Of a DNA stretch of 39,916 bases, positions 1 through 16,342 are shown piece by piece. The notes under the pieces were generated by a model. That model was not told where the DNA came from. It made no database searches and saw nothing but the letters and a program-made list of their open reading frames with translations. A program made the translations under genes and the position numbers. The DNA is taken from contig DWYZ01000213.1 in the NCBI GenBank assembly GCA_019118425.1, positions 1 to 39,916 of the forward strand, written 5' to 3'. Every line of letters begins with the position of its first letter. The stretch's first letter is position 1. This DNA comes from Candidatus Blautia faecavium. Its GTDB lineage: Bacteria; Bacillota; Clostridia; Lachnospirales; Lachnospiraceae.

Positions 1-692
1 GTTCCCTGATCCAGCATTTTTCCTTTATGGAGAAGGATCACACGGTCGCAATACTTGGAAATACTGCTGAGATCATGGCTGACAAAAAGGATGGTCTTTC
101 CCTGGGCCTTAAACTCTTCAAACTTATGATAGCATTTCGCCTGGAAGAACACATCCCCCACGCTTAGCGCTTCGTCCACGATCAGAATCTCCGGATCAAT
201 GTTAATGGCCACCGCAAAGGCAAGCCGCACAAACATACCGCTGGAATACATTTTTACAGGCTGATGGATGTAATCTCCAATGTCCGCGAAGGCAAGAATA
301 TCATCCAGACGAGCGTCAATCTCCTCCTTGGAAAATCCGATCATGGTTCCGTTTAAGTACACATTTTCCAGGCCGGAGTATTCCATATTAAAACCGGCTC
401 CCAGCTCCAAAAGAGCGGAAATCCTTCCGTCCACCTTCACTTCTCCCTGGGTGGGATTCAACACTCCGGTGATGATTTTTAGAATGGTGGATTTTCCGGA
501 ACCGTTGACCCCAATGATACCCACACATTCTCCTTCTTCTATATCAAAATTCACATCATTCAGCGCGTAATGCTCCCGGTACCGCTTTTTCCGGCTCAGT
601 CCCAGGGATTCCTTCAGACGGTCGGAAGGCTTGTCGTACAGCTTATACATCTTTGATAAATGTTGAACTTGAATGACTTTCTTCTTTTCCAC
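1..692 (-). CDS. wzt: Polysaccharide/teichoic acid ABC exporter, ATP-binding subunit (Wzt/TagH type), partial
   Basis: This is the ATPase of a polymer exporter that would energise transfer of a lipid-linked surface polysaccharide or teichoic acid across the membrane with the permease just upstream. About 230 residues are visible and the C-terminus lies beyond the left edge. Read on the minus strand it has a Walker A (GVNGSGKST), an ABC signature region (YSSGMFVRLAFA), Walker B (ILIVDEA) and an H-loop (ILFVSHD). The signature is the degenerate SSGM form common in Wzt/TagH proteins rather than LSGGQ. I chose a GTG start at 692 because an AGAGAGG ribosome site sits 8 bases upstream and the first residues (MEKKKVIQV) lead straight into the ABC fold. 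It follows the permease stop by 22 bases. Whether a C-terminal carbohydrate-binding domain follows cannot be seen. Confidence 0.9.
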   Translation of the reverse strand, partial: MEKKKVIQVQHLSKMYKLYDKPSDRLKESLGLSRKKRYREHYALNDVNFDIEEGECVGIIGVNGSGKSTILKIITGVLNPTQGEVKVDGRISALLELGAGFNMEYSGLENVYLNGTMIGFSKEEIDARLDDILAFADIGDYIHQPVKMYSSGMFVRLAFAVAINIDPEILIVDEALSVGDVFFQAKCYHKFEEFKAQGKTILFVSHDLSSISKYCDRVILLHKGKMLDQG

Positions 693-714: not shown

Positions 715-1530
715 CTATAATACATCTGCGAAATGGACGCGGAGACGCTTAAATACCCAGCTTCCCAGCAAAAAGCACAAAATAGTAAATACCCAGAAAT
801 AAAGCGTCCAGTAAGGGCGTTCCACAAACCACTGTTTCGCCACAAAAGCATCTCTGTAGCCGGATACAATATAATACATAGGATTCAGCTGCAGTATTCT
901 ATGGAGAATAGGATGGTCAATAAGCGCTGTCTCCGCCACCCACATAATAGGGGTCAGCCAGATTCCCACCTGAAGTCCTATGCTTATGATCTGGGTCAGA
1001 TCCCTGAAAAATACCACAATGGCGCAGGTAGCATAGCACAGTCCCAGCACCAGTACAAAGGTACAAAAGCTGTAGTAAAGGATCTGAAGATAATACACAT
1101 CCGGAAATCTTCCATAAAGCATATATAAAATAATAGTAAACGCAACAAAAAAGCAATGTACGAACAAGGCAGAAACAATCTTTACAATTGGAAGCACACT
1201 GATATTAAAGACTACTTTTTTCACGAGATAGTTATATTCGATCAGAGCGTTCGTCCCTCCGTTTAACGAATCCTGGAAGAAAAACCAGGGCACGATCCCC
1301 GCTACCAGATAAAGAACAAAGGGCACGTCCACTCCCTCCATGGAAGGCTTGACTCCCACGGAAAAGACAAACCAATATACCAGGATGGTGACAATAGGCT
1401 GGATCAGCGCCCACACAGCGCCCAGATAAGAGCCTGCGTACCTGGTCTTAAAATCATTTTTCGCCAGTTTTAAAACCAGCCGGCGGTTTTTCCACACATC
1501 CGCCGGCAGGGAAAAAATTGTTTTCAGCAT
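715..1530 (-). CDS. wzm: Polysaccharide/teichoic acid ABC exporter, permease subunit (Wzm/TagG type)
   Basis: The membrane half of the exporter completed by the downstream ATPase; it would form the channel for the lipid-linked polymer. The 271-residue length and roughly six hydrophobic segments fit the ABC-2 permease family used for O-antigen and teichoic acid export. The N-terminal stretch with LVLKLAKNDFKTRYAGSYLG is the amphipathic helix typical of Wzm/TagG, followed by the first membrane helix (WALIQPIVTILVYWFVFSV). The ATG at 1530 is preceded by AGGAGA at good spacing. It lies 29 bases after rmlC. The exported polymer cannot be told from sequence; the neighbours point to a dTDP-sugar-containing glycan. 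Confidence 0.92.
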   Translation of the reverse strand: MLKTIFSLPADVWKNRRLVLKLAKNDFKTRYAGSYLGAVWALIQPIVTILVYWFVFSVGVKPSMEGVDVPFVLYLVAGIVPWFFFQDSLNGGTNALIEYNYLVKKVVFNISVLPIVKIVSALFVHCFFVAFTIILYMLYGRFPDVYYLQILYYSFCTFVLVLGLCYATCAIVVFFRDLTQIISIGLQVGIWLTPIMWVAETALIDHPILHRILQLNPMYYIVSGYRDAFVAKQWFVERPYWTLYFWVFTILCFLLGSWVFKRLRVHFADVL

Positions 1531-1559: not shown

Positions 1560-2108
1560 TCATAAATCCTTAAGAAGCCCCCAGTTCTTGTCCTTCTCGG
1601 AAAAGATAAGCTCCATTCCCTCCTGGACAGGCCACTGCACGCCTATATCCGGGTCATTCCAGAGAATTCCCCCTTCATCGTTAGGATGATAAAAATCCGA
1701 ACATTTATAAGTAAATTCTGCTTTTTCGGATAGTACGAGAAAACCGTGGGCAAAGCCCTTGGGGATAAAAAACTGCTTTTTATTTTCCGCGGACAGAACC
1801 ACTCCGTACCACTGTCCGTAAGTAGCGGAGCCTGCTCTAAGATCTACCGCAACGTCAAACACTTCTCCGCTTACCACACGGACCAGCTTGTCCTGAGGAT
1901 AATGGATCTGAAAATGAAGTCCCCTAAGCACCCCGTATCTGGAGCCAGACTGGTTGTCCTGGACGAATTCTACATCAATGCCCGCCTCTTTAAAATCATT
2001 GTAATTATAAGTCTCCATAAAATAGCCCCTGTCATCGCCGAATACTGTCGGCTCAATAACCTTAAGGCCTTCTATATTTGCACAATCCGTTACCTTGATT
2101 TTTCCCAT
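1560..2108 (-). CDS. rfbC: dTDP-4-dehydrorhamnose 3,5-epimerase
   Basis: RmlC/RfbC epimerises C3 and C5 of dTDP-4-keto-6-deoxyglucose in the cytoplasm, the third step toward dTDP-L-rhamnose. The 182-residue length is that of the family. The cupin core motif GVLRGLHFQ holds the catalytic-base histidine region, and FIPKGFAHGFLVLS is the second family signature. The start has AAGGAGA just upstream. It sits 69 bases after rmlA. No rmlD (final rhamnose reductase) is in the window, so rhamnose synthesis would need a gene elsewhere; alternatively the epimerised 4-keto sugar feeds another branch. Confidence 0.95.
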   Translation of the reverse strand: MGKIKVTDCANIEGLKVIEPTVFGDDRGYFMETYNYNDFKEAGIDVEFVQDNQSGSRYGVLRGLHFQIHYPQDKLVRVVSGEVFDVAVDLRAGSATYGQWYGVVLSAENKKQFFIPKGFAHGFLVLSEKAEFTYKCSDFYHPNDEGGILWNDPDIGVQWPVQEGMELIFSEKDKNWGLLKDL

Positions 2109-2177: not shown

Positions 2178-3047
2178 TTACAGCCCTTCTGAGATTTCCA
2201 TAAGATATTTTCCGTAAGTTGTCTTTAAAAGAGGCTGGGCAAGCTTTACCAGCTGTTCTTTTGTAATAAATCCCTGCTTGTAAGCGATCTCTTCAATACA
2301 GGATACATACAGGCCCTGGCGTTTCTGAACTGCCGATACATACTCCGCCGCATCCAAAAGCGCGTCCGGATTTCCTGTATCCAGCCATGCAAAGCCTCTT
2401 CCCAGAGTTTCCACATGGAGCATCCCTCTTCTTAGATACTCGTTGTTTACACTGGTGATCTCAATCTCCCCCCGCTTGGAAGGTTTTACGTTTTTCGCGA
2501 TCTCCACAACAGAATTATCATAAAAATACAGTCCGGGAACAGCATAATTAGACTTAGGATTCTGCGGCTTTTCCTCAATGGACAATGCCTTTCCGGTCTC
2601 ATCAAACTCCACTACCCCGTACTCTCTGGGATCACGTACATAATATCCGAAAATGGTCGCTCCTTCTGTCCTGGCTGCTGCCTGGCGAAGAACTTTCGTG
2701 AAACTCTGCCCATAAAAAATATTATCTCCAAGAACAAGGGCCACATTATCTGTCCCGATAAATTCCTCTCCGATGATAAAAGCATCCGCCAATCCCCTGG
2801 GATATTCCTGTACTGCATAGGACATTTTAAGGCCCAGCTGCTCCCCGCTTCCGAAAAGCTCCTGAAATACCGGAAGGTCTCTGGGTGTGGAGATGATCAG
2901 GATCTCCCTGATCCCTGCCAGCATTAACGTGGAGAGAGGATAATAGATCATAGGCTTGTCATAAACCGGCATGATCTGCTTACTGATAGCTACGGTAAGA
3001 GGGTAAAGCCTGGTTCCCGACCCACCCGCAAGAATGATTCCTTTCAT
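2178..3047 (-). CDS. rfbA: Glucose-1-phosphate thymidylyltransferase
   Basis: RmlA/RfbA makes dTDP-glucose from dTTP and glucose-1-phosphate, the entry step of all dTDP-deoxysugar pathways. The 289-residue length is normal for the short RmlA form. The nucleotidyltransferase signature [11 protein letters not shown] lies near the N-terminus, and the metal-binding [10 protein letters not shown] and [15 protein letters not shown] motifs follow. GGAGG precedes the ATG. It lies 10 bases downstream of the carboxypeptidase gene, so the two are probably cotranscribed. It supplies both the RmlB/RmlC branch and the RffA aminosugar branch. Confidence 0.96.
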
Positions 3048-3057
3048 GGAAAACCTC

Positions 3058-4344
3058 CTATTTTCTCTTTTTCTTTGCCTTTTTATTCTTTTTTACAAGG
3101 GCAATGAGCAGTATCACAAGGATCACCACCATAACCCCCATAATTATAAACAGGAACTTTGCCAGGTCCGTGATCCCGTCCCTGGCTGGTTCCTGTGTGG
3201 TATCGCTATTTTCTGTCTGGCCTAAAAGAGGAGCCTGGTTGGCGTCCTCCGCTTCCTCTGCCTGGGGAGTGGGGGTAGGGCTTGCCGCAGCCTGCTCCAC
3301 ATTTCCTATGCCGACCCGGTAATCTCCCAGGTAGTAGCCCTCCCTATTTCTGCCGTCTATCTCTTCTTCCCGCACAGTGACAGACTCTGTTCCCGTTCCG
3401 CTTGGAATGATCACATTACCGGTCCTGTATTCTGTCTTTTGGAAATTCTGGAATCCGTAATCATACAAAAGGCGGCTGTCCATGCTTACCTGGTTCATAT
3501 CCGCCCCCCGCATAACAACGGCAATATAAGTGACTCCATTCTGCCGCACTCCCGTGACCAGGGTATAGCCGGCATCGTTGGTCATACCGGACTTTCCGCC
3601 CAGACATCCCTCATAATAAAGAGCGGATTCCTCCGCAAAAAGAGGAATGTGGGTGTGAAGCTTCCGTGTTTCACTGTTCAGATTCGTAGGTTCTATATAA
3701 TAGGTAGGAGTGCCGATGATCTTACGGAAGATATCGTTCTTTAAGCCTTCCCTGAAGATCAGGGCCATATCCCTGGCTGTTGTGTACTGGTTTTCATCAG
3801 GCAGTCCGCTGGCATTGACAAAGTTCGTATTGGTACAGCCAATCTCTGCCGCCCTCTCATTCATCATGGCGATGAAATTTTCTTCCGTACCTCCTACGTA
3901 TTCTGCAATCTGGGCGGACACCTCGTTAGCAGAATAAATGATCATAGCATACAGGCAATCCTCCATGCTCATGGTCTCCCCGAGCTGCATGCCGATGTTT
4001 CCAGAATCAGGGGTGACGTCCCGAACGCCAGTCTCCGTAAAGGTCACCATATCATCCAGACTGCTGTTCTCTACTGCCACCAGCAAAGTCATCAGCTTAG
4101 TGATACTTGCCGGATAACGAAGCTCATCCGCCCCCTTATCATAAACTACTGTTCCTGTCTGGGCTTCCATAAGAATCCCCGTATCCGATGATATCTCGGG
4201 TCCTGCAGGCCATCCCTGTATATCATTTGTAGAAATGGGATAAACGGCATTTAGATCCACCGATGCCGCAGATACCGGCAGGGCAAATACAAGCGCTGAT
4301 AAAGCAGCCGCGGCTTTATACAATATTTTTCTTATTTTTTTCAT
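3058..4344 (-). CDS. D-alanyl-D-alanine carboxypeptidase (DacF/PBP5 type), membrane-anchored
   Basis: A low-molecular-weight penicillin-binding protein that trims the terminal D-Ala from peptidoglycan stem peptides outside the cell. The 428 residues start with a signal peptide ([17 protein letters not shown]). The active-site motifs are all present: SITK (Ser80, Lys83), SAN (138-140) and KSG (251-253; KTG in most relatives). A low-complexity segment follows, then a C-terminal membrane helix (about 397-418) and a very basic tail [11 protein letters not shown], so it is anchored by a helix rather than the amphipathic helix of PBP5. It sits 9 bases after rffA and 10 before rmlA, inside a sugar operon, which is unusual. 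GAGG lies 7 bases before the ATG. Confidence 0.93.
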
Positions 4345-4353
4345 AGCTTGACC

Positions 4354-5484
4354 TCAAAATTCCTTAAATCCATCGACAGCATCTACGATCCGTTTTACAT
4401 CCTCCATATCCAGGTTATAAAACATGGGCAGACGCAAAATCCGTTCGCTTTCTCTGGTAGTATACACATCCTCTCCGAAGAAACGGCCGAATTTCTTTCC
4501 CGCCGGTGCGGAATGAAGAGGAACATAATGGAACACACTCATGATACCCTTTTCTCTAAGATAAGCAATCAGCTTCGTACGTACAGTTATGTCTCTTACC
4601 TTAATGTAATACATATGGGCATTGTGTATACATTCCTTCGGTACAAAGGGCTGCTGGATCTTTCCTTCCTCTGCCAGATGTTTCAGATTCCGGTGATAAT
4701 ACTGATAAATATCCATACGCTTTTTATTGATCCGCTGGTACTCTTCCAGCTGGGCATACAGGTAAGCGGCATTCAGTTCGCTTGGCAGATAGGATGAGCC
4801 GTAATCCACCCAGCGGTACTTATCCACCTGTCCCCGGAAAAACTTGCTGCGGTCCGTTCCCTTTTCCCTCAGGATCTCCGCCTGCTCCTGGTACCTGACA
4901 TCCTGGAATAAAAGCGCGCCGCCCTCACCCATAGTATAATTCTTCGTCTCATGGAAACTGTAGCATCCAAAATCTCCTATAGTACCAAGAGCCTTCCCTT
5001 TATAAAAAGCATCCACGCCCTGGGCAGCGTCCTCTACTACCTTAAGACCATATTTTTTCGCTATGCCCATAATGGTGTCCATTTCACAAGCCACTCCTGC
5101 ATAGTGGACCGGAACGATTACCCTGGTCCGGGAAGTGACTGCTCCTTCGATCTGTTTCTCATCTATGTTCATGGTATCCGGACGGATATCCACAAACACA
5201 ATCCTGGCTCCCCGAAGGACAAAGGCGTCCGCCGTAGAGACAAAGGTATAGGAAGGCATGATGACCTCATCTCCCGGCTTCAAGTCACACAGATAAGCCG
5301 CCATTTCCAGCGCATGGGTACATGAGGTAGTCAAAAACACATGGTTTACCTGAAATTTTTCCTGTATCCACTGGGAGCACATTTTCGTATAGGCCCCGTC
5401 TCCGCAGAGCATCCCTCTGTTTACCGCATCCTTTATATAATCCAGTTCTTTTCCCACAAAGGCGGGACGGTTAAAATCAATCAT
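4354..5484 (-). CDS. rffA: dTDP-4-keto-6-deoxyhexose 4-aminotransferase (RffA/WecE-like)
   Basis: A PLP-dependent DegT/DnrJ/EryC1/StrS aminotransferase that would convert dTDP-4-keto-6-deoxyglucose to a dTDP-4-amino-4,6-dideoxyhexose (Fuc4N in the enterobacterial RffA pathway). Its 376-residue length fits WecE. The PLP lysine is Lys181 in SFHETKNYT, with the GEGGAL loop after it; EDAAQ near residue 151 supplies the cofactor-binding aspartate. N-terminal NRPAFVGKELDYI is typical of the RffA subgroup. The start overlaps the end of the glycosyltransferase gene by 8 bases, with AGAGGAAA upstream, suggesting translational coupling. Stereochemistry (galacto or gluco) cannot be decided by eye. It is the key gene arguing that this locus makes an aminosugar. 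Confidence 0.9.
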   Translation of the reverse strand: MIDFNRPAFVGKELDYIKDAVNRGMLCGDGAYTKMCSQWIQEKFQVNHVFLTTSCTHALEMAAYLCDLKPGDEVIMPSYTFVSTADAFVLRGARIVFVDIRPDTMNIDEKQIEGAVTSRTRVIVPVHYAGVACEMDTIMGIAKKYGLKVVEDAAQGVDAFYKGKALGTIGDFGCYSFHETKNYTMGEGGALLFQDVRYQEQAEILREKGTDRSKFFRGQVDKYRWVDYGSSYLPSELNAAYLYAQLEEYQRINKKRMDIYQYYHRNLKHLAEEGKIQQPFVPKECIHNAHMYYIKVRDITVRTKLIAYLREKGIMSVFHYVPLHSAPAGKKFGRFFGEDVYTTRESERILRLPMFYNLDMEDVKRIVDAVDGFKEF

Positions 5485-6421
5485 CTGTTTCCTCTATTTT
5501 CTCTATATTTGCCTTCTCTCGAATCACATACTGAGGCGTCCTGTTAATATTTAAAATCACCTTTCCTATGTACTCTCCTATAATGCCCAGCATCAGAAAA
5601 CTAAATCCGAAAAACACCAAAAGGGCACACATAAGAGAGGACCATCCCACAGCGATACAGGGATTTAAAAGCTTACGGATCAGCACGACAATGGCGGCAA
5701 TAAATCCCGCCGCTGAAAACAGGGTGCCCAAAAGAGTAGCCGCCCGCAGAGGGATCACTGTAAAATTCAGACAGGACATAAAAAGCTTCAAGCCCTTACG
5801 GAAGGTATAATTAGAGCTTCCTGCCTCCCTGGCGTAATGTTCGATCTCAATATTTGCAATGTTATGGGTAGTCCTGAAAAACAACACCTGGAGAAACACA
5901 TTATAGCCGTCATACTTCACCACTTCATCCCTTACATACCGGCGGCAGCACCAGAAGCTGCTCATCTGGATATGCTTGGGCCGGTCTAACAGCCGCCATA
6001 AAAGGAAACGGCTGACAGCCCCGGTTATATTCTTAACTGCTGAGAATTTTCGCTCTTTAAAAACGCCGAACACAATATCATATCCCTCCTGGATCTTCTC
6101 CAGGAACTGAGGAATCTGAGAAGGATGGTTCTGCATATCATCGTCCATTCCCACAATCAGGTCTCCGCTGGTGTAGGAAAGACCCGCCATGATGGCATTG
6201 TGCTGTCCGAAATTTTTCGCGAAATTAATGCCTTTTACATTAGGATACTTTTCTGTCAGGCCCTTAATGGTCTGCCAGGTGGCATCCTTTGAATAATCGT
6301 TGACTAAAATAAACTCACAGTCGTAGTCCGAAAGCCGGCGGAATTCCTCCATAGCCAGCTCCACGACCTTTCCGATGGTTTCCTGTGAATTATAACATGG
6401 TATGACAATAGATACCAGCAT
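5477..6421 (-). CDS. GT2 glycosyltransferase, ArnC/GtrB/DPM1-like polyprenyl-phosphate sugar transferase
   Basis: Members of this family load one sugar from a nucleotide donor onto undecaprenyl phosphate at the inner membrane face. The 314-residue protein has an N-terminal GT-A domain (SIVIPCYNS at residue 4, acidic metal-binding DDD at 93-95 in GMDDDMQNHP) and two C-terminal membrane helices (about 225-250 and 260-285), as in ArnC and GtrB. An ATG 21 bases further upstream is open, but the internal ATG at 6421 has GAGGAGG right before it, so I chose that one. It overlaps rffA, whose product may be the donor. With the SMR pair upstream it resembles the ArnC-ArnEF logic of making and flipping an Und-P-sugar. 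Confidence 0.88.
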   Translation of the reverse strand: MLVSIVIPCYNSQETIGKVVELAMEEFRRLSDYDCEFILVNDYSKDATWQTIKGLTEKYPNVKGINFAKNFGQHNAIMAGLSYTSGDLIVGMDDDMQNHPSQIPQFLEKIQEGYDIVFGVFKERKFSAVKNITGAVSRFLLWRLLDRPKHIQMSSFWCCRRYVRDEVVKYDGYNVFLQVLFFRTTHNIANIEIEHYAREAGSSNYTFRKGLKLFMSCLNFTVIPLRAATLLGTLFSAAGFIAAIVVLIRKLLNPCIAVGWSSLMCALLVFFGFSFLMLGIIGEYIGKVILNINRTPQYVIREKANIEKIEETDD

Positions 6422-6435
6422 TCTTGCCTCCTCTT

Positions 6436-6493
6436 GACACATTCCCTATGTCAATAATGGTAGATTTGAAAGTTTTCTTCCTAACTTTCCTTC
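6436..6493. repeat. Two-hairpin intergenic repeat, degenerate copy 1
   Basis: A diverged copy of an element seen again at 18888-18939 and 26127-26180. It keeps the shared centre TCAATAATGGTAGATTTG and the following paired purine/pyrimidine block, but the GACGCA/TGCGTC stem is reduced to GACA/TGTC. It fills the gap between the SMR-like gene and the glycosyltransferase start. Confidence 0.7.
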
Positions 6494-6544
6494 TTCTGAC
6501 GTGCCGTCCGGGCAGATTTGAAATTTATTTTTTACGGTCTGCCG

Positions 6545-6889
6545 TTATCTTGAAAAAACTACAATACCTAAAAGGATCAAGGCAAGGCCTAAAAGCTTTC
6601 TCTTCCCAAAACGTTCCTTCAGGAAAATATAGCCCAGTACGGACACAAAAATGTAACCTGTGGATTCCAGTATAGGAGACATGGAAAGGGGGACTCTGCG
6701 AAGAGCCAGCATAGTCAGGATCACCGAGCAGAAAAACATAGCATAAGCAGTCACCACCACAGGATTCAAATATTCTCTTATACGGTTTTTATAGGTTTTA
6801 TCCGCTGCTTTTTTCAGCAGTATCTGGGATACGGAAGAAATGAACACAGATACCAAAAGCACGCAGATGGAATTTCCCAAACTATTCAT
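6545..6889 (-). CDS. SMR/EamA-type small membrane transporter subunit (ArnF-like)
   Basis: A 114-residue, four-helix membrane protein of the drug/metabolite transporter superfamily. Hydrophobic segments fall at about 6-24, 42-62, 68-90 and 97-113. The conserved pattern PLSMSPILESTGYIFVSVLGYIFLKERF is the usual EamA half-domain with the glutamate-containing loop before the last helix. It overlaps the next upstream gene by 8 bases, and both are half-size, so the two probably form a heterodimer. In the Arn system ArnE and ArnF form such a pair and flip Und-P-aminoarabinose; by context the substrate here would be an undecaprenyl-linked sugar, but a small-molecule exporter is possible. Confidence 0.75.
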   Translation of the reverse strand: MNSLGNSICVLLVSVFISSVSQILLKKAADKTYKNRIREYLNPVVVTAYAMFFCSVILTMLALRRVPLSMSPILESTGYIFVSVLGYIFLKERFGKRKLLGLALILLGIVVFSR

Positions 6890-7244
6890 CGCTGCTCACC
6901 ACCAGATAAATCCCTGCGAAAATAATGGCTGCTCCTAAAACCATATTCCAGGAGATCTCTTCCTTAAAAATAAGGCTTCCCCAGATGATTCCCCAGACCA
7001 GCGTCACAGGCTTATTGGAATAAGCCACGGTCAGAGGCATCCGCCGAAGGATCTGCTGCCAAATAACCGCATATACAAACATGATCACAAAAACCAGTCC
7101 GAACCAGAACAGGAACGGAAGGGAAAAAATATCCTCCATATAGCCTGATGCCATCTTAGAACACACACCGCTTAAGGAACTTAACAATAGGCTTCCATGA
7201 AGGGCCAGAAATACACTTTTTTTTGTAGAAGTAGAAGTTCTCAT
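6882..7244 (-). CDS. SMR/EamA-type small membrane transporter subunit (ArnE-like)
   Basis: A 120-residue partner of the overlapping gene downstream. Four hydrophobic segments (about 10-30, 41-64, 75-92, 98-116) and the motif LTVAYSNKPVTLVWGIIWGSLIFKEEISW match the EamA/SMR half-transporter fold. The ribosome site is weak (GTGAGAAAATAAC), consistent with coupling to the upstream ATP-grasp gene, which ends 15 bases before. It has no clear substrate signature. The position between aminosugar ligases and a polyprenyl-phosphate sugar transferase is the main argument for a flippase role. Confidence 0.75.
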   Translation of the reverse strand: MRTSTSTKKSVFLALHGSLLLSSLSGVCSKMASGYMEDIFSLPFLFWFGLVFVIMFVYAVIWQQILRRMPLTVAYSNKPVTLVWGIIWGSLIFKEEISWNMVLGAAIIFAGIYLVVSSDE

Positions 7245-7259
7245 GTTATTTTCTCACAA

Positions 7260-8447
7260 TCATAAATTAAATTCAATGCTTATTTTCGACAAAACCTCTT
7301 CCAGACGTTTTTTACATCCCAAAAGGGTATCCCCTGCCAGGATTACCTGGCCGATCCGGTCTCTTCCATTCTGATAGCGGCGCACTTCCTCTCCCGGCCG
7401 GATGTTAAAGGAAAGATCGATCAGATCCGGAGAAGGAAGATTCTCATTTCGGATTTCTTTTACTTTTCCGCTTTTCTGGGAAGAAAGCGTCTTTGCCAAT
7501 ACGGCTCCCCACTTTCCTTTTTCTTCAAACATATGGGCCACCGGCATTCCAAGAGCCAGCCGGGCGATGGCCTCATAATAATTTATATCGTACATAAGCC
7601 CCACGATCTCGGGAAGGCAGGTTGCTCCGGCACGGCCGGTGATCTCGATCACATAGATCTTTCCATCCTTTTCTATAAGGTCGCAGTTCACCGGACAATC
7701 ATCCAGTCCCACAGCCTTGATGGCCAGCATTACCTGCCGTTTCACCTCATCTCCCAGGGTTTCCTGTTTCTCATAGGGAACAGAATGTCCTACAGGAGTA
7801 GGCACCGTACTTTCAAAGGCAAGGGTATTATTTGGAAGGCAATATAAAAGCTCTCCCTGATACATCATTGCCTCACAGCCCATAAGCTTTCCCTGAATAA
7901 ATTCTTCTACCAGACAGTAATCTTTTCTTGTGGCAGCCATGGTATCCTCATAATGAAGAAGGGCCTCTTCTTTCGTATCGCACCGAAAGATCCCCCGGCT
8001 GCCCATAAGGTCTACTGCCTTTACGATCACCGGAAAGGGAAGCTTCTCAAGGGCTTCCTCTAATTCTCTCCGGCTTCTTATTAATATGTGGCGGGCGCAG
8101 CGCACGCCCCCTTCCTGGAAGGCTTCTTTCATTTTATATTTATCGGAGCTTTTTTCTCCGGCGCTTTTCGATAGTCCGGGAAGGCCAAGGGTCTCACAGG
8201 CATAGCCAAGGGAGCGTACGCCTGCGTCCACACAGCAGGTGGCGATCCCATTCACCCCAAACTCTCTGGCAGCCTTAAGCACCTCACTGGGCTTTGAAAT
8301 ATCCGCGTAAGCGCATTCATCCGCCAGGGAAAATCCAGGCCAGTCTCCCTTCGTGCTGGCGGCCACTGTCTTTACCCCAAGGTCTTTGGCCGCCTTATAA
8401 AGGGGAATCTGAGAATAACTCGCCCCCAGTATCATTAATTTTTTCAT
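7260..8447 (-). CDS. ATP-grasp carboxylate-amine ligase
   Basis: A 395-residue ATP-grasp enzyme of the biotin-carboxylase/PurK-like class, which activates a carboxylate as acyl phosphate and joins it to an amine. The N-terminal fold (KKLMILGASYSQIPL) is the pre-ATP-grasp Rossmann domain. PVIVKAVDLMGSRGI is the ATP-grasp lysine and glycine-rich loop, and VIEITGRAGATCLPE carries the metal-binding glutamate. The start codon overlaps the stop of the fusion gene upstream by four bases (ATGA), so the two are translationally coupled. Substrate is unknown; a sugar amine or amino acid is plausible in this operon. I know no exact named homologue and give no symbol. Confidence 0.85.
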   Translation of the reverse strand: MKKLMILGASYSQIPLYKAAKDLGVKTVAASTKGDWPGFSLADECAYADISKPSEVLKAAREFGVNGIATCCVDAGVRSLGYACETLGLPGLSKSAGEKSSDKYKMKEAFQEGGVRCARHILIRSRRELEEALEKLPFPVIVKAVDLMGSRGIFRCDTKEEALLHYEDTMAATRKDYCLVEEFIQGKLMGCEAMMYQGELLYCLPNNTLAFESTVPTPVGHSVPYEKQETLGDEVKRQVMLAIKAVGLDDCPVNCDLIEKDGKIYVIEITGRAGATCLPEIVGLMYDINYYEAIARLALGMPVAHMFEEKGKWGAVLAKTLSSQKSGKVKEIRNENLPSPDLIDLSFNIRPGEEVRRYQNGRDRIGQVILAGDTLLGCKKRLEEVLSKISIEFNL

Positions 8448-10597
8448 GACTCTAAGGCTCCCTTCATATGCAGCAGATCAAAAAAAAGAGGGGTTCCACC
8501 TGTATGCCAGAAAAGAATATTCTCTTTGCATATTTCCTTTTCTTTCAGATAGGAAAGCATTCCGTGAAATCCCTTGCCGGTATAGGTCATATCCAGAGGC
8601 AGGCCTTCCTCTTCATATACTCTTTTGATCACATCCATGACTTTTTCAGAATAGGCTCCGTAGCCGCCTTCCATGTATGCGTCTGTAAAATAAATCTGGT
8701 CTTCCCATCCTTTTGGAAGGGAGAGGTTCCATTTTTTTCCATAGACTTTTATATTATTTTCTATGACCTCTCTGCCTCTGGCGGCGTTTCTGGAAACGGA
8801 GATCCCTACGATCTTTCTTTTATCTTTCTTTAACAGGCTTCCCATGAGAAGGCCGGACTGGGTGGCATTGGTGCTGGAGGCGAGGAAAATATACGAAAAG
8901 GCTTTTCCCGTTTTTTCTTCCCAGGCGCACAGTTCCTGGTAGGCCTGCACGTAGGCCTCCATAGGAATACATTCATTGCCCTCTCCCAGATGGTTTCCAT
9001 AAATATAATAAGGGGAATATCCCTGCTCCTTAAGCTCGTCCATTGCCGTTAAAACAGCGGAGGCAATTTCGTTTTTTCTGCATTTTATTTCTTTTACGCC
9101 CATCTGCTTGATGAGACGGCTGTTGCAGGACTCTCCTTCCTCTTTTATATCCTCTGTATTATGCACCATATAGCAGGGAATGGAGAGTTCTCTGCACACT
9201 GCGGAAAGGATCCTGCAGAGATTAGAATGGTAATTGCCGTAAATGATCATGGCGTCACAGTGCTTTCTCCGCATATCCTCCACAAACTTCTCTCCGAACC
9301 TCACCTTGTTTCCCCCAAAGGAAAAAGACAGCAGATCGTCCCGCTTTACAAAAAACTGATTCTCTCCGTCAGAAAGCCGCAGCTTATGTACCGGGGTTTC
9401 AAAAATCTGGATCGGATTCTCCTTTGGTCCCCGGTGGAGAAGCCCTTCCATTTCCTCCATGGTTTCTGTCTGAAGGATATAAAAGCCCGGGCGTCCGCCG
9501 CTGTCCAGGATCTCCCCGCTGGGAAAGGTTTCCGGCACTGTTATTTTTTTCAGGCATTGGGGATGGCTTTTCTTTAACTCCTCCATGCGTTCCATATCTT
9601 TTTTGCACATAAGGAAGCGGATTGCCGCTATGTGCTCTTTTTTTTCTGAAATCTCCGGTTCTCTGCCGCAGGCAATGTCAATAACCATTTTTACATAATC
9701 CCTGCCGGTAGATAAAGGCACAAGGTCTGAACCGATACAGTCTCCTCCCATGCGGGAGCCGATCTCTATGATATGTATGTTTTCCTCCCGGTCAATGCGA
9801 AGCTCGCTGTGTCCCGCCCCGTACTCCACCCCCAGGGCGTCCAGGGCGGCACAGACTGTCCGTTCCACTTTTTCTTTCAGCTCTTTAGATAGAGGAGCCG
9901 GTTCCAGATGGCCTGTCTCAATATAATGGGGCGCGCCTGTGGTAAACTTTTTTGTAATTGCCAAACAGGTATGTCTGCCTTTATAGCTTATGGACTCCAC
10001 ACTGTACTCCGCCCCAGAAAGACAGGCTTCCACAATGGCTTTCTTTTCAAAAGACTGTTCTATTGCCCGTTCTATGGCGGGAATCAAGTCTTTTTCCTCC
10101 TTTACCAGGGTAATGGCCCGGCTTCCGGAACGGTCGGTGGGCTTTACGATAACGGGATAAGACGGAATGGAAATGTCTTTCCTTCCATCCCCGTTTTGGG
10201 CAGAAATTTTTTTCTTATCTTCCTCTCCCACCACCTGAAAAAAAGGAACGGGAATCCCCGCCTCCTTCATTGCTTTTCGCATGAGATATTTATTGGTGGT
10301 CTTTTCTATACACTCCTGGCTGTTGCCGGGAAGGCCAAGCTTCCTGGCCAGATACTGCACCGTGATATTGGCAAGATCCGAACCGATGGTAGCCACGCCC
10401 TCCGGCCAGATTTCTCTGCATATTTCCAGTATCTTTTCTTTTTCTGTGATACTGATCTCGTAAAATTTATCTGCGTCCGCCGCCCCTGACGCTCCCTCTC
10501 TCCAGGCAAAAACATGGGTCTCATATCCCATTTCCTTTGCCTTTTGAATGAGCGGCCTTTGGAAATCATTGGCGCCGATGATGACAATTTTTCTCAT
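8444..10597 (-). CDS. Fusion: ATP-grasp ligase + ACC deaminase/D-cysteine desulfhydrase-like PLP enzyme
   Basis: A 717-residue two-domain protein. Residues 1-390 form an ATP-grasp ligase: KIVIIGANDFQRPL at the start, the ATP loop VKPTDRSGSR at 151-160, and metal-binding IEIGSRMGGD at 277-286. Residues 394-717 form a fold-type II PLP enzyme of the ACC deaminase/D-cysteine desulfhydrase family: VKRDDLLSFSFGGNKVR with the probable PLP lysine at 431, a Ser/Thr-rich phosphate-binding loop SSTNATQSGL, and the family's C-terminal HTGGTP at 698-703. Both halves look full length. An ATG 93 bases upstream is in frame, but it would translate a perfect DNA palindrome; the ATG at 10597 has GAGGAA five bases before it and begins at the conserved fold. 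The fusion suggests the PLP domain prepares or consumes the amino acid used by the ligase. Confidence 0.88.
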   Translation of the reverse strand: MRKIVIIGANDFQRPLIQKAKEMGYETHVFAWREGASGAADADKFYEISITEKEKILEICREIWPEGVATIGSDLANITVQYLARKLGLPGNSQECIEKTTNKYLMRKAMKEAGIPVPFFQVVGEEDKKKISAQNGDGRKDISIPSYPVIVKPTDRSGSRAITLVKEEKDLIPAIERAIEQSFEKKAIVEACLSGAEYSVESISYKGRHTCLAITKKFTTGAPHYIETGHLEPAPLSKELKEKVERTVCAALDALGVEYGAGHSELRIDREENIHIIEIGSRMGGDCIGSDLVPLSTGRDYVKMVIDIACGREPEISEKKEHIAAIRFLMCKKDMERMEELKKSHPQCLKKITVPETFPSGEILDSGGRPGFYILQTETMEEMEGLLHRGPKENPIQIFETPVHKLRLSDGENQFFVKRDDLLSFSFGGNKVRFGEKFVEDMRRKHCDAMIIYGNYHSNLCRILSAVCRELSIPCYMVHNTEDIKEEGESCNSRLIKQMGVKEIKCRKNEIASAVLTAMDELKEQGYSPYYIYGNHLGEGNECIPMEAYVQAYQELCAWEEKTGKAFSYIFLASSTNATQSGLLMGSLLKKDKRKIVGISVSRNAARGREVIENNIKVYGKKWNLSLPKGWEDQIYFTDAYMEGGYGAYSEKVMDVIKRVYEEEGLPLDMTYTGKGFHGMLSYLKEKEICKENILFWHTGGTPLFFDLLHMKGALES

Positions 10598-10846: not shown

Positions 10847-11929
10847 TTATTTGGTATGATACATTTCTTCGTAGTATTTCTGGTAATCTCCGCTGGTGAC
10901 ATTTTTCATCCATTCTTCATGCTCGAAGAACCACTGGATCGTCAGGCGGATGCCGTCCTCAAAACAGGTCTCCGGAGACCAGCCCACCTCGGATTTGATC
11001 TTATCCGGTGCAATGGCATAACGCCGGTCATGGCCTTTTCTGTCCTCCACATAAGTGATCAGATCTTCACTTACCAAAGCCCGGCGTGGATCGCTCTTCG
11101 GCAGCATTTCTTTCAATGTGTCCAGAATGATATGGATGATCTGGATATTCTGCTTTTCGTTATGGCCTCCAATGTTATAGGTCTCGAAAAGTCTTCCTTT
11201 TTCCTGGACCATATCAATTCCCTTGGCGTGATCCATTACATACAGCCAGTCACGGACATTTTTTCCATCGCCGTATACAGGCAGATTCTTTCCTTGGAGA
11301 GCATTGTTAATGATCAGGGGGATCAGTTTTTCCGGGAACTGGTAAGGGCCGTAGTTATTGCTGCAGTTGGTGATGTTCGCCGGGAATTTATAGGTATCCA
11401 TATAGGATTTTACCAGCATGTCTGAGGAAGCCTTGCTGGCGGAATAAGGGCTGTGGGGATCATAGGGAGTAGTCTCATAGAAGTAAGAGCCATCATCCTC
11501 CAATGACCCGTAGACCTCGTCTGTGGATACATGCAGGAATTTTTTATCCGGCTTAAAGGTACCGTCCGGAAGTTCCCAGGCAGCTTTCGCCGCGTTCAGC
11601 ATGTTCAGGGTACCCAGCACATTGGTCTTTACGAAAACGTCCGGGTTCTTAATGCTTCGGTCCACATGGCTTTCCGCTGCGAAGTGAACTACACGGTCAA
11701 TGTCGTTTTCCTCGAAAATTTTCATCATGGCGTCTCCGTTGCAAATGTCCGCCTTAATGAAGGTATAGTTTTCTCTGTTTTCAATGTCTTTTAAGTTTTC
11801 CAGGTTTCCTGCGTAGGTGAGCTTGTCTACGTTGATGATACGGATGGCGTCTCCGTATTTCTGGAACATGTAGTGGATATAGTTGGAGCCGATAAAGCCG
11901 GCTCCGCCGGTTACCAGGTATGTGCGCAT
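10847..11929 (-). CDS. rfbB: dTDP-glucose 4,6-dehydratase
   Basis: RmlB/RfbB converts dTDP-glucose to dTDP-4-keto-6-deoxyglucose, the shared intermediate for rhamnose (RmlC/D) and for the 4-amino sugar (RffA). This 360-residue extended short-chain dehydrogenase has the NAD-binding GGAGFIGSN at 8-16, STDEVYG at 135-141 and the catalytic YSASK pair Tyr162/Lys166. The start ATG has AAGGAG eight bases upstream and a good promoter before it. It is separated from the rest of the cluster by 250 bases holding a palindrome and a repeat, so it may be regulated on its own. Confidence 0.97.
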   Translation of the reverse strand: MRTYLVTGGAGFIGSNYIHYMFQKYGDAIRIINVDKLTYAGNLENLKDIENRENYTFIKADICNGDAMMKIFEENDIDRVVHFAAESHVDRSIKNPDVFVKTNVLGTLNMLNAAKAAWELPDGTFKPDKKFLHVSTDEVYGSLEDDGSYFYETTPYDPHSPYSASKASSDMLVKSYMDTYKFPANITNCSNNYGPYQFPEKLIPLIINNALQGKNLPVYGDGKNVRDWLYVMDHAKGIDMVQEKGRLFETYNIGGHNEKQNIQIIHIILDTLKEMLPKSDPRRALVSEDLITYVEDRKGHDRRYAIAPDKIKSEVGWSPETCFEDGIRLTIQWFFEHEEWMKNVTSGDYQKYYEEMYHTK

Positions 11930-12112: not shown

Positions 12113-13618
12113 TTAGCGGCGGTTGGTGCAGATTCCTTGGGAGTTGAATTTGTAGGTTTGGCCTTGGGAGTTTGTTACTTTGCAGTTTTTGAGCATTACG
12201 CCTGCTTTGCTGGTGAAGTAATACCATTTTCCGTTTAGTTTCATCCAGCCTTTTCGTGCTTTTCCGTTTATCTGGAAGAAGTAGGTTTGGGTTTTTCCGT
12301 TGGTTTTGAGGGTTTTGAGGGTTTTGAAGCCTTTGTTGTAGCGGACTCCGTTTTGGTCTACATAGTAGATGTCTCCGTTTTTCATGGTTATTTTTTTGTT
12401 TTTATAGAGGTATGCTTTGGAGGGATGGAAGTAGTAGTATTTTCCGTTTACTTTTTTCATTCCCCGAAGGGCGTACCCCTGGGAGCCTACGTAATATTGT
12501 TTTCCTTTAAAGGTGCACCAGCCTTTCAGACGTTTTCCGTCCGCTCCCAGAAGGTATACGTCTCCTGAGGCAGATACCATGGCAGTGTCCTTATACATGA
12601 ATCCGTATGTGATATCAAAATAGTACCAGGTGCCGTTGTCATTCATCCAGTTGCAGTGGGCAATGCCATCGTCTTTGAAGAAGTATTGTTTCCCTTGGAA
12701 TTCCTGCCATCCATACTGGCGTTTGCCGTCCGGGCCTACGAAATAGATGCCTGGTTTCAAAAAGAGAAGTTTATTTTTAATCTTTTCGTCATTTTCGTAG
12801 TAGTAATAATCTCCGTTTTCTTTATACCAACCGTTTTTCCCTGAAGTATCCTGTCCGTCATCCACCGGCTCGTCCGGAAGCTGGTCGCAGTACCTTACGA
12901 TCGCCCGGGCGTCTGCTGCTGCAAGACGGCGGAGTTTTGCGTCAGAGCTTAAAAAGTTTTTTACATCGGAGGCATTGCTGATAAAGGCATGTTCGATGAT
13001 CACCCCGGGAAGATCCATTTCTACGCTGGAGGCGACAATTCCATAATAATCTCTCAGAGCTCCGTTAGGATATCTGCTGTTATTTTCCGTCATGCGGTAT
13101 TCCATCCCGCCAGTCTCTGGAAAGCGCTGATAGATTCCTAATTTCCCCAGTTCCTCCATTACATAGCTTCCGAAAAGTTTTTCCTTCTGGGACAGGTACG
13201 GACGGTAGGTTCCCTTGGAAATCATCACCGAGGCGCCCTTGGCGGAAGGATTGGCCACGGAATTAATATGCTGGCTTACCAAAAGGTCCGCGCCATAATC
13301 TTTCGCCCTCTGCACTCTTGCCCGAAGGCCCAGCCGTTCCTGATAAGAACGTGTGAGATGTACCTCTATGTCTCCATGCTTAGCCAGCTCCTGCATGGTA
13401 TAGTTGGATATTTTCCAGTTTATCTCTTCTTCTTTGTACAATACTCCGTTATGCCGCGCCCAGGCTCCTGTCTCGCCGCCTCCATGCCCCGGGTCCAGTA
13501 CTACCACATGTTTTTTTACTGCGGGTGCTTTTTGCGCAGCAAAGGCGGCAAAGCCGCCGAAAATACCGGCCAAGCCTGCTGCCGCCGCAAGAAGTATAAT
13601 CCACTTTTTCTTTTTCAC
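12113..13618 (-). CDS. Secreted N-acetylmuramoyl-L-alanine amidase with wall-binding repeats
   Basis: A 501-residue secreted amidase_3 enzyme that cuts the MurNAc-L-Ala bond of peptidoglycan. It has a signal peptide or anchor (residues 5-28). The zinc amidase domain spans about 36-250, with LDPGHGGG (His45), the KEEEIN glutamates near 63-65 and SQHINS (His117). The rest is a chain of aromatic repeats of the choline-binding/glucan-binding type (for example KGWMKLNGKWYYFTSKAG), about 270-495, which should hold the enzyme on wall polymer. The GTG start at 13618 has AGGGAG six bases upstream. It follows the lysozyme gene by 21 bases, so the two likely share one mRNA. The 3' part is richer in G than the neighbours on the plus strand. 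Confidence 0.93.
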   Translation of the reverse strand: MKKKKWIILLAAAAGLAGIFGGFAAFAAQKAPAVKKHVVVLDPGHGGGETGAWARHNGVLYKEEEINWKISNYTMQELAKHGDIEVHLTRSYQERLGLRARVQRAKDYGADLLVSQHINSVANPSAKGASVMISKGTYRPYLSQKEKLFGSYVMEELGKLGIYQRFPETGGMEYRMTENNSRYPNGALRDYYGIVASSVEMDLPGVIIEHAFISNASDVKNFLSSDAKLRRLAAADARAIVRYCDQLPDEPVDDGQDTSGKNGWYKENGDYYYYENDEKIKNKLLFLKPGIYFVGPDGKRQYGWQEFQGKQYFFKDDGIAHCNWMNDNGTWYYFDITYGFMYKDTAMVSASGDVYLLGADGKRLKGWCTFKGKQYYVGSQGYALRGMKKVNGKYYYFHPSKAYLYKNKKITMKNGDIYYVDQNGVRYNKGFKTLKTLKTNGKTQTYFFQINGKARKGWMKLNGKWYYFTSKAGVMLKNCKVTNSQGQTYKFNSQGICTNRR

Positions 13619-13639
13619 CTTTTTCTCCCTCTGCCTTTA

Positions 13640-15214
13640 TTACTTTTTATACTGTTTTATGCAAACTCCATTTTTGTTAAAGACGGATACTATGCCGGAA
13701 CCGCTGGTGAGGGTAATGCTTTTTGCCATTATTGCCGATCCCTGGGTATTTCCCTTATAGAAATAATATTTCTTTCCGTTGATAGTATGCCAGCCTTTAT
13801 AAGCTCTTGCATTTGTTCCGAAATAATAGGTATTCTTTTTCCCGTTTTCCGTAATGGTCTTGAATCCAAAGTCACAGCACCAGCCGTTGCTTCCTGCATA
13901 ATAAATATTTCCATCCTGAGCTATGATCTTTTTGCTTTTATACATATAGGCAAGCGTTTCGTCAAAGAAATAATATTTGGCGCCAATCTTTTGGGAACCT
14001 TTTACCGCATAGCCGTTAGAAGCCATATAATATCGTTTTCCTTCCCAGCTTACCCAGGTATTGGTCACTCTGGCTCCGTCTTCGTCCACATAGCAGATAT
14101 TATTCTTGCTGGAGGTAAGAAGGGTATTTTTAAAAAGCGCGCCTGCATTACTGCTGAAATAGTAATACTTCCCGTCAATCCTCTGCCAGCCTTTTACTTT
14201 TTCATCGTTTTTATAATAGTAAGTGTAGCCGTTTTCTGTCACCCATCCGTTTTTTCCGGTACTGACACCGCTGTCGTCCCAATCCAGATCAGGCGTGGTG
14301 GAAGGTTCATAGGTAGAAACCGCATTCCAGCGGGGAGTGATGATCTTCGTATAATCCACATAGCCGAAATCAATGTCCACATTGTTTCCACTTGGAATAC
14401 CTGCGATCAGGCCTGCAGTGGAATTTAAGGTTCCGCCTCCGTCACCGTCTGTGGCCTGCCAGATCGTATAATTATAGGAAGAACTGGAAGGGGCCTGGAT
14501 CGTGTCGCCGTATCTTGCAATCCATACATCTATTCCATTTAAATAACTCCAGTCCACTTCGTTGTCATACCAGTTTGTGTTGCAATAGACCATGGGATAA
14601 TAGCCGGCTTTCTTAATCTCGTTGCAGAATACCACCGCCAGTTTGGCTACCTGCTTTGTGGAAAGCTGACCCATCTGGGAATATTCCAGATCAAAAACCA
14701 CCGGATAAGAAACCTTATAACCGTCCATTTTTTCAATGGCAAGTTTCGCCTCTCTCAAGGCCATAGCCGGCGTGGTGGCCGTGCTGTATATGTAAGTGCC
14801 TACTGGAACTCCTGCCTGCTCTGCCTGCTGCATGTTATAATCGTAGGTTTTATCTAGATAATTAGAACCGTAGGCAATCCGCACGAAAGCAAAATCTACA
14901 TTAGAATTTTTTACACTCTGCCAATTTATAGTCCCCTGCCATTCAGATACATCGATTCCTCTGGTAATGGCTCCCGGGATTTCTACGCCGCTTCCATTGT
15001 AACAAACGCCGTTGATCTTCTGCCAGGCCCTGGAGTTCGCTCTCGCTGTCCCAAAGAGGAGCTGTCCTTCTCTTTTCGCAGCCAGTTCATCCTGATCCAG
15101 AGTATCCCATCTCTGATAAGTCTGGGCCGATGCAGTGCAGATGCCGGCAAAAAGAAGCCCCAGACATAACGCGGCGATCCCAATGGTTTTTCGGATCCAC
15201 TTTTTCATATTCAT
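13640..15214 (-). CDS. Secreted GH25 lysozyme with wall-binding repeats
   Basis: A 524-residue muramidase that hydrolyses MurNAc-GlcNAc bonds. A signal peptide (about 1-30, ending ICTASA) precedes the GH25 domain at about 84-300: RGIDVSEWQG with Asp88, and the catalytic pair in VVFDLEYS (Asp175 and Glu177). The C-terminal third is a run of choline-binding-like repeats (KGWQRIDGKYYYFSSNAGALF and relatives). It has its own strong promoter. The first ATG at 15214 has AGAGGG seven bases upstream. Amidase and lysozyme share the same repeat module, so both probably dock to the same wall polymer. It could be a phage-derived endolysin, but the signal peptide argues for a cellular autolysin. Confidence 0.94.
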   Translation of the reverse strand: MNMKKWIRKTIGIAALCLGLLFAGICTASAQTYQRWDTLDQDELAAKREGQLLFGTARANSRAWQKINGVCYNGSGVEIPGAITRGIDVSEWQGTINWQSVKNSNVDFAFVRIAYGSNYLDKTYDYNMQQAEQAGVPVGTYIYSTATTPAMALREAKLAIEKMDGYKVSYPVVFDLEYSQMGQLSTKQVAKLAVVFCNEIKKAGYYPMVYCNTNWYDNEVDWSYLNGIDVWIARYGDTIQAPSSSSYNYTIWQATDGDGGGTLNSTAGLIAGIPSGNNVDIDFGYVDYTKIITPRWNAVSTYEPSTTPDLDWDDSGVSTGKNGWVTENGYTYYYKNDEKVKGWQRIDGKYYYFSSNAGALFKNTLLTSSKNNICYVDEDGARVTNTWVSWEGKRYYMASNGYAVKGSQKIGAKYYFFDETLAYMYKSKKIIAQDGNIYYAGSNGWCCDFGFKTITENGKKNTYYFGTNARAYKGWHTINGKKYYFYKGNTQGSAIMAKSITLTSGSGIVSVFNKNGVCIKQYKK

Positions 15215-15293
15215 ATCTCATCCCTCTTGTTTCGTTTTTGTCAAAATTTGGTTTCAAAGTTTTTTAAGATATTACGTTTTTGTTACGGTTTTT

Positions 15294-15322: not shown

Positions 15323-15344
15323 TACGGAGTTACTAAAATATGTA

Positions 15345-16271: not shown

Positions 16272-16300
16272 CTATTTCCACGCAACATTTTATATGCACA

Positions 16301-16333: not shown

Positions 16334-16342
16334 GATTATTTT

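Follow-up and report, generated by a model that had tools for sequence, protein, structure and literature searches.

Introduction

The Arn pathway (ArnB-ArnA-ArnC-ArnE/F-ArnT) combines a 4-aminotransferase, a GT2 glycosyltransferase that loads the sugar onto undecaprenyl phosphate, flipping by a pair of SMR proteins, and transfer by a GT-C enzyme; its donor is a UDP sugar with an N-formyl group, and its acceptor is lipid A. In the synthesis of enterobacterial common antigen, the GNAT acetyltransferase WecD acetylates dTDP-4-amino-4,6-dideoxy-D-galactose (dTDP-Fuc4N) made by RffA/WecE, while the L-amino acid ligases BL00235, BacD, and RizA join two amino acids. Here we describe a gene cassette with features of these systems in a 39,916-base stretch of DNA from Candidatus Blautia faecavium, family Lachnospiraceae (assembly GCA_019118425.1, contig DWYZ01000213.1), hereafter the window. 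It encodes RffA, two ATP-grasp ligases (ATPg1, fused to a pyridoxal phosphate [PLP]-dependent PALP domain, and ATPg2), a GT2, and two SMR-like proteins (SMR_A and SMR_B). The window is one entire contig of a 3.5 Mb draft genome, and genes past its base 1 are not visible. With the Arn pathway the cassette shares the 4-aminotransferase, the GT2, and the SMR pair, but it would use a dTDP sugar, carry a predicted amino acid instead of the N-formyl group, and decorate a polymer rather than lipid A. With enterobacterial common antigen it shares RffA/WecE, and sister loci in the window's family have a GNAT next to RffA; it differs in having ATP-grasp ligases in place of the acetyltransferase and, as predicted, a lipid-linked monosaccharide route. 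The three amino acid ligases are among the nearest solved folds of its ATP-grasp domain, for which the acceptor would here be an amino sugar.

Gram-positive three-component systems (GtcA-CsbB-YfhO, CsdAB, and others) consist of a GT-A transferase acting on undecaprenyl phosphate, a small flippase, and a YfhO GT-C transferase to a wall polymer (PMC8035078), and multi-component transmembrane glycosylation also adds side chains to lipopolysaccharide O antigens (PMC11127046). According to excerpts of the former source, the Gram-positive systems handle simple sugars (glucose, galactose, and N-acetylglucosamine) with GtrA- or Wzx-type flippases, whereas the present cassette has an SMR pair and a predicted aminoacylated Fuc4N. 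Capped amino sugars have a precedent as well. In the type B flagellin locus of Clostridium difficile (CDR20291_0244-0247), a taurinyl-Ala-Gly cap is carried on Fuc3N, and an ATP-grasp mutant lacks the terminal moiety (PMC5207245, PMC5207246). Like our cassette, that locus has a dTDP-amino-dideoxysugar aminotransferase homologue (FdtB-like there) and an ATP-grasp, and the sugar amine is capped by amino acids, as we predict here. It differs in its 3-amino sugar (4-amino here) and its flagellin placement, and excerpts of the two papers mention no undecaprenyl-phosphate transferase, flippase, or PLP-fused ligase. An earlier note on this DNA, made from the sequence, had stated that no Gram-positive locus with such a combination was known to it. 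The C. difficile locus qualifies that statement; in those excerpts the flagellin pathway is not described as lipid-linked and flipped.

Linked ATP-grasps that add successive residues have also been noted for O-antigen (PMC4431377), and RffA-made Fuc4N has been predicted for the flagella of Clostridium butyricum (PMC13317340). Among the top-ranked open-licence PubMed Central papers, we found none that describes an ATP-grasp, RffA, an undecaprenyl-phosphate transferase, and a flippase together, which is not proof of absence. Excerpts of PMC12419801 and PMC4594306 hold nothing on such a system, and those of a review of gut surface glycans, which treats one Lachnospiraceae species, R. gnavus, describe no such residues (PMC12413058). 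Three-component glycosylation and amino-acid-capped amino sugars are thus already known; what would be new is an aminoacylated Fuc4N donor combined with an undecaprenyl-phosphate transferase and an SMR pair.

Results and Discussion

Proposed pathway

Comparison of sequences leads us to propose, with reasonable though not high confidence, that the cassette encodes a glycosylation pathway of the three-component (multi-component transmembrane) type whose donor sugar is aminoacylated. The enzymes RfbA, RfbB, and RffA would make dTDP-Fuc4N by way of dTDP-glucose. One or both ATP-grasps would, using ATP, couple the carboxylate of an amino acid to the 4-amine in the cytoplasm, a step that in sister loci is probably performed by a GNAT; working together, the two ligases may assemble a cap that resembles a dipeptide, and one of the amino acids is probably provided or altered by the PALP domain. 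The decorated sugar would then be loaded by the GT2 onto undecaprenyl phosphate, carried across the membrane by the SMR pair, and attached by a GT-C transferase (a YfhO-family protein in a same-genus genome) to the polymer exported by Wzm/Wzt. Sequence comparison itself shows the gene families, their co-occurrence, the fusions of domains, and the near-exclusion of the GNAT; in this scheme we infer the amide formation on Fuc4N, the order of the steps, the amino acid, the acceptor polymer, and the final transferase. The pathway model of the earlier note left out the outer-face GT-C transferase and a DacA-like gene that is discussed below.

Association of the ATP-grasp ligases with rffA

That the genes form a linked system is well supported by comparative genomics. 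In a sample of 299 genomes of the window's family (298 genera, nearly one genome per genus), RffA was present in 97 (E <= 1e-80), ATPg1 in 24 (at least 345 bits over the ATP-grasp part), and ATPg2 in 26 (E <= 1e-40); the ATPg1 search scored at most three candidates per genome, and some ATPg1 genes may have been missed. RffA accompanied ATPg1 in 23 of 24 genomes, ATPg2 in 26 of 26, and either ligase in 42 of 43 (hypergeometric p 5.6e-23), a count for which the genome lists were compiled by hand from separate gene searches; p-values in this study treat genomes as independent, which is not wholly so. A phylum-wide sample of 398 genomes held ATPg1 in three, including the window's own, and all three had RffA, against a background of 24/398.

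The association extends to gene neighborhoods. We fetched 120 stretches from the family sample, mostly around RffA or ATP-grasps, and used 119 for neighbor counts (L152 was left out), with RffA scored as nearby within ten genes and GT2 or SMR within five. Among 22 ATPg1 genes, RffA was nearby in 15, GT2 in 18, SMR in 10, and at least one of these in 20; for 26 ATPg2 genes the corresponding numbers were 11, 23, 13, and 26. A second set, comprising the best 80 of 421 homologue loci in a collection of named genomes, was scored within 10 kb and may include near-copies. Here, RffA was found in 67 of the best 80, GT2 in 65, the SMR pair in 61, ATPg2 in 24, and PALP in 20; at least one of RffA, SMR_A, and GT2 was present in 77, and of the three loci with none, L170 and L177 end at or near the match. 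The same grouping is seen again in Blautia and, with its genes rearranged, in many further genera; RffA and ATPg1 are direct neighbors in many loci, and many loci have ATPg1 alone or ATPg2 alone. A chance neighborhood is ruled out by the genome co-occurrence and by the neighbor counts in both sets. The earlier note had named, as evidence that would speak against its proposal, ATP-grasp genes occurring mostly apart from rffA or from the GT2 and SMR genes; the reverse is observed, and the joint function it suggested is well supported by these comparisons, while the coupling chemistry, substrate, and step order are still things that we infer.

The surroundings of the module can be of the rhamnan (RgpF), YfhO, DUF2142, or Wzm/Wzt kind, and it thus behaves as a movable cassette for side chains. 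ATPg1 also lies next to or near RffA in L212, on a chromosome of the spirochaete Treponema ruminis, and in L234 and L235, from metagenome-assembled genomes labelled Bacilli and Saccharibacteria, which may reflect interphylum transfer or a binning error.

ATP-grasp ligases and acetyltransferases beside rffA

Many rffA loci that lack ATPg1 and ATPg2 contain a GNAT of about 170 to 200 residues near RffA, together with GT2 and large membrane proteins. Two of these GNATs were scanned and belong to Pfam Acetyltransf_3; one was scanned in NCBIfam and came nearest to PseH, at 83.0 bits against a cut-off of 93.1. A GNAT lay beside rffA in only 1 of 40 genomes with ATPg1 or ATPg2, as opposed to 21 of 53 without (Fisher p 1.4e-5). 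These counts cover 93 of the 97 rffA genomes, the missing ones being the window's own, G001, G092, and G165, the last with a match (45% identity) below the 350-bit threshold. At the level of loci, 37 of 94 had an ATP-grasp only, 21 a GNAT only, 1 both, and 35 neither, an ATP-grasp being counted as nearby upon any profile match at E 1e-5 (38/94 loci, of which 27 reach at least 200 bits). When any ATP-grasp near rffA was counted as well, the numbers by genome were 3 with both, 50 with an ATP-grasp only, 19 with a GNAT only, and 21 with neither. The rarity of a GNAT beside rffA where ATP-grasps occur suggests that the ATP-grasp replaces N-acetylation, and we regard this near-exclusion as the best argument that the ATP-grasps perform the N-acylation step. 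The sole genome counted with both ATPg1 or ATPg2 and a GNAT beside rffA, G004, has a GNAT-type rffA locus (L072) and a separate ATPg2-GT2 locus (L141).

The ATP-grasps might instead act on another acceptor, for instance by amidating the carboxylate of a uronic acid or by assembling a peptide on peptidoglycan; the locus would then be shared for a surface role only, and Fuc4N would be loaded and flipped undecorated. We consider this unlikely. The cassette does adjoin genes for peptidoglycan and wall enzymes, and in Campylobacter the glucuronic acid of the capsule is amidated by an ATP-grasp domain fused to a GT2 (PMC11800379), but no uronic-acid gene was recognised among the window's open reading frames (ORFs) upon reading, as distinct from a systematic scan. 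Likewise, although RffA is not always adjacent to the ATP-grasps, 42 of the 43 ATP-grasp genomes carry rffA even where the genes are unlinked, RffA and ATPg1 are direct neighbors in many loci, and beside rffA an ATP-grasp and a GNAT are almost mutually exclusive.

Family membership, folds, and conserved residues

RffA scores above the WecE equivalog cut-offs in NCBIfam (PRK11706, 629.9 bits, cut-off 375; TIGR02379, 621.8 bits, cut-off 434.85), and its two best PDB sequence matches bear the WecE name or a similar one; dTDP-Fuc4N is its predicted product on the grounds of family membership. The GT2 matches PF00535 with 106.3 bits. The two small SMR-like genes lie side by side near this lipid-sugar GT2, an arrangement of the ArnE/ArnF type, and a putative GT-A type undecaprenyl-phosphate transferase accompanied by a small flippase, both assigned by wider family only, is what a three-component system would have.

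The fusion protein matches PF13535 (ATP-grasp, 74.9 bits) and PF00291 (PALP, 80.8 bits). Its AlphaFold2 model, built from 13 sequences, has a mean predicted local distance difference test score (pLDDT) of 82.2 and a predicted template modeling score of 0.79. For the ATPg1 half, the best solved fold is PDB 4dim; next come BL00235, YwfE/BacD, and RizA, all L-amino acid ligases, interspersed with chains of pyruvate carboxylase and PurK. The PALP half best matches D-cysteine desulfhydrase. ATPg2, with a model of mean pLDDT 94.9, has ATP-grasp domains and LAL_C2 (46.9 bits, cut-off 29.4), and its best PDB sequence match is 4dim (E 8e-104). In 22 ATPg1, 23 ATPg2, and 28 PALP sequences, the catalytic motifs to be expected are among the conserved positions; the conserved acidic and arginine residues of the ATP-grasps are presumed metal/ATP residues, and the PALP motifs presumed catalytic ones. 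A fold near the amino acid ligases together with conserved metal/ATP residues is consistent with enzymes that would join the carboxylate of an amino acid to an amine. The 4dim entry is titled phosphoribosylglycinamide synthetase, a title that may be wrong given its match with ATPg2.

Observations against the proposed pathway and split loci

Several observations weigh against the proposed pathway. One ATPg1 genome, G040, lacks rffA. RffA lies within ten genes of only 15/22 ATPg1 and 11/26 ATPg2 genes in the family stretches, and two of the 22 ATPg1 genes, those of L133 and of L046 (whose contig is 13.8 kb long), have neither RffA nor a GT2 or SMR gene close by. In the named set, L178 likewise has none of these genes downstream, and in L034 the module is without the SMR pair. 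The 35 of 94 rffA loci with neither an ATP-grasp nor a GNAT nearby belong here too, 14 of those 35 genomes having ATPg1 or ATPg2 elsewhere, and the five seed sequences of the GNAT profile came from GNAT loci, which could bias the exclusion test. The GT2 scores below the equivalog cut-offs of PgfS (177.6 bits, cut-off 500) and ArnC (163.5 bits, cut-off 529), and the SMR proteins below those of ArnE (36.3 and 40.1 bits, cut-off 92) and, for SMR_B, ArnF (27.0 bits, cut-off 99); we therefore liken them to the ArnC/PgfS and ArnE/SMR groups and do not file them as members. The window has no GT-C gene up to the contig edge where it stops, and searches of its draft genome found no close orthologue of the YfhO-family candidate from the same-genus genome. 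Finally, in several genomes RffA is located elsewhere, beside other GT2 genes, in which case dTDP-Fuc4N may also feed a backbone.

In the same-genus genome, the YfhO-family candidate (Pfam YfhO, 246.5 bits, cut-off 28.5) shares a cluster with Wzt and is located downstream of it. It was considered as a guide to the missing GT-C of the present genome, in which the YfhO-like genes are on other contigs and are only partial matches of 22-40% identity, and none was assigned. Large membrane proteins without a Pfam match are encoded beside the module in several loci (two in the GNAT locus L092, and one each in the ATPg1 loci L039, L116, and L118), and perhaps represent undescribed GT-C families.

In six genomes, ATPg2 and GT2, in some cases with a YfhO gene, are on another contig than RffA (L136-L139, L141, and L147), and in five of these six RffA lies beside the same two other GT2 genes (L053, L056, L057, L064, and L140; not L072). 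Such splits would suit a reading in which RffA feeds the backbone polymer and the GT2, SMR proteins, and ATP-grasps are a unit of their own, producing and flipping some other lipid-linked sugar, or a lipid, that bears an amino acid. We find this reading quite improbable, as RffA is present in all 26 ATPg2 genomes and the genes form one run not only in the window but also in most Blautia loci and many further genera. Moreover, the SMR pair is next to RffA in three of the five split genomes with the two other GT2 genes (L053, L064, and L140), which ties RffA to the flipping step.

Order of acylation and lipid loading

Possibly, aminoacylation occurs after lipid loading or on an amino acid that is already attached, with one ATP-grasp extending the cap made by the other and the GT2 handling plain Fuc4N. 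This scheme differs from the proposed pathway in step order only, and we accord it a limited but real chance. Several points would suit such late acylation: a GT2 lies within five genes of 23 of the 26 ATPg2 genes, including cases in which RffA is located away from them; many loci contain just one of the two ligases; and linked ATP-grasps reportedly often add successive residues (PMC4431377). In the GT2 tree, however, sequences group according to the kind of enzyme presumed to do the acylation (6 changes; shuffled mean, 26.9), fitting recognition of an acylated donor by the GT2. To the points against the proposed pathway must be added that the RffA tree clusters likewise (7 changes; shuffled, 22.1). 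Since it does so nearly as strongly, common descent may explain the clustering of GT2, which thus argues only weakly against late acylation, and we do not take the GT2 tree to prove that acylation comes before lipid loading.

The PALP domain and the DacA-like gene

The PALP domain scores below the cut-offs of the following subfamilies or equivalogs (TIGR01275, 132.2 bits, cut-off 289.4; CuyA, 138.8 bits, cut-off 450; ACC deaminase TIGR01274, 106.2 bits, cut-off 392). Its PLP lysine, K431 in the GGNK motif, and the YTGK motif Y672-K675 are kept in at least 93% of 28 PALP domains, a count that leaves out four more distant ones. In a midpoint-rooted tree, the fused PALP domains constitute one group (25 rows; support, 100/99), joined to ATPg1 in Blautia, L034, L176, and L181 and to ATPg2 in L035, L036, L038, L040, and L048; the free PALPs of L049-L051 fall just outside it, the larger group having support 96/94. 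L169 and L180 were left out of the PALP and DacA trees.

After exclusion of the duplicates L169, L180, L196, L210, and L200, and of L152, ATPg2 was present in 27 of 28 loci with PALP versus 20 of 91 without, and a DacA-like gene in 20 of 28 versus 1 of 91, most of these cases being Blautia-like. Within the family sample alone, and with a looser PALP threshold, the DacA link was 6/11 with PALP versus 0/33 (p 6.5e-5); L174 and L179 lack both PALP and the DacA-like gene. In the DacA tree, the locus genes join other DacA genes, one of them a paralogue in the window's own genome. The simplest reading is that PALP probably supplies or alters the ligated amino acid, and its absence from many loci indicates that it is optional. 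As PALP and the DacA-like gene go together, an unusual or D-amino acid is a possibility. Four of the free PALP loci outside the module, all lacking a nearby RffA (L052, L149, L150, and L151), each encode a DegT aminotransferase together with an ATP-grasp whose N-terminal domain is PylC-like, and possibly represent the same idea applied to other amino sugars. L150 also holds Bac_transf and Polysacc_synt_2 genes.

Conceivably, the findings could be read more broadly, in a form that we advance with considerable doubt. A modular aminoacyl-sugar cassette would be widespread in Lachnospiraceae, with an ATP-grasp replacing the N-acetyltransferase of 4-amino-sugar synthesis and the product being lipid-linked and flipped. 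In the two-ligase form of the window, the cap would be dipeptide-like and contain an unusual or D-amino acid supplied by PALP; the co-inherited DacA-like protein would either trim it or employ it as the amine in cross-linking. The combination of PALP and ATP-grasp would operate on other amino sugars as well, with other DegT aminotransferases.

If the proposed pathway is correct, Blautia and many gut Lachnospiraceae would be coated with amino-acid-bearing sugars, that is, with zwitterionic surface glycans of possible importance for immune recognition, phage receptors, and wall charge. It would also provide a new donor class for three-component glycosylation systems, and would suggest a function for two ATP-grasp families, for one of which a close relative has been solved (4dim) under the title of a purine enzyme.

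Gene order in the window and neighboring genes

On the minus strand, the genes are ordered RfbB, ATP-grasp/PALP fusion, ATPg2, SMR_A, SMR_B, GT2, RffA, DacA-like, RfbA-like, RfbC, Wzm, and Wzt (Table 1). The families named in the earlier note were all recovered on this strand within the range that it had given. Its count of seven linked genes is to be corrected, the range 4354-10597 holding six minus-strand ORFs, or seven only if the fusion is counted twice. The start of the fusion was set where aligned homologues begin; the mechanical ORF begins at 10690. Overlaps of 4 bp between the fusion and ATPg2, 8 bp between SMR_A and SMR_B, and 8 bp between GT2 and RffA suggest co-translation at these three junctions; gaps of 15 bp separate ATPg2 from SMR_A, 102 bp SMR_B from GT2, and 9 bp RffA from the DacA-like gene. 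In the named collection, the nearest named relatives of the ATP-grasp are from Blautia. The names of the RfbA-like and Wzt-like genes are ones that we presume from the sequence, independently of a family-library scan.

Table 1. Features of the cassette and adjoining genes in the window
Feature	Position	Strand	Basis
RfbB, dTDP-glucose 4,6-dehydratase (predicted to make the RffA substrate)	10847..11929	-	TIGR01181, 476.8 bits, cut-off 365.1
Fusion: N-terminal ATP-grasp ligase ATPg1 (residues ~1-385) and C-terminal PLP-dependent PALP, D-cysteine desulfhydrase/1-aminocyclopropane-1-carboxylate (ACC) deaminase kind (~398-710)	8444..10597	-	Family scans, model
ATPg2, second ATP-grasp ligase, with L-amino-acid-ligase C-terminal domain 2 (LAL_C2); near sequence kin of PDB 4dim	7260..8447	-	Family scan, PDB match
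SMR_A, SMR/EamA-like small membrane protein, proposed half of lipid-sugar flippase	6882..7244	-	Family scans
SMR_B, SMR/EamA-like small membrane protein, proposed other flippase half	6545..6889	-	Family scans
GT2, ArnC/GtrB/PgfS kind, proposed undecaprenyl-phosphate amino-sugar synthase	5477..6442	-	Family scans
RffA/WecE, dTDP-4-amino-4,6-dideoxygalactose transaminase	4354..5484	-	NCBIfam, PDB matches
DacA-like S11 peptidase, between RffA and rfb genes	3058..4344	-	Family scan, locus comparison
RfbA-like, presumed glucose-1-phosphate thymidylyltransferase	2178..3047	-	82% identity to gene in similar run of L048
RfbC, dTDP-4-dehydrorhamnose 3,5-epimerase	1560..2108	-	TIGR01221, 263.3 bits, cut-off 155.75
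Wzm-like ABC-2 polysaccharide export permease	715..1530	-	Family scans
Wzt-like, presumed ABC export ATPase, truncated at the contig end, with an approximate upper boundary	3..690	-	

Upstream of the cassette, positions 12113-18847 of the window encode on the minus strand an amidase, a GH25 enzyme, and an L,D-transpeptidase, all three with choline-binding-like repeats, and similar proteins recur in Blautia loci. Proteins with such repeats were considered as partners for which the amino sugar would be the wall ligand. By a crude motif count (at least 4) over the 120 family stretches, they occurred in 2 of 44 stretches with ATP-grasps and 2 of 76 without, and the idea was rejected as a general link. 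In the same region, a short minus-strand ORF (15333-15833) matches only positions 2-71 of a 291-position aldo/keto reductase profile and resembles a gene remnant, and a plus-strand ORF (15876-16271) has a repeated charged tail and no Pfam match.

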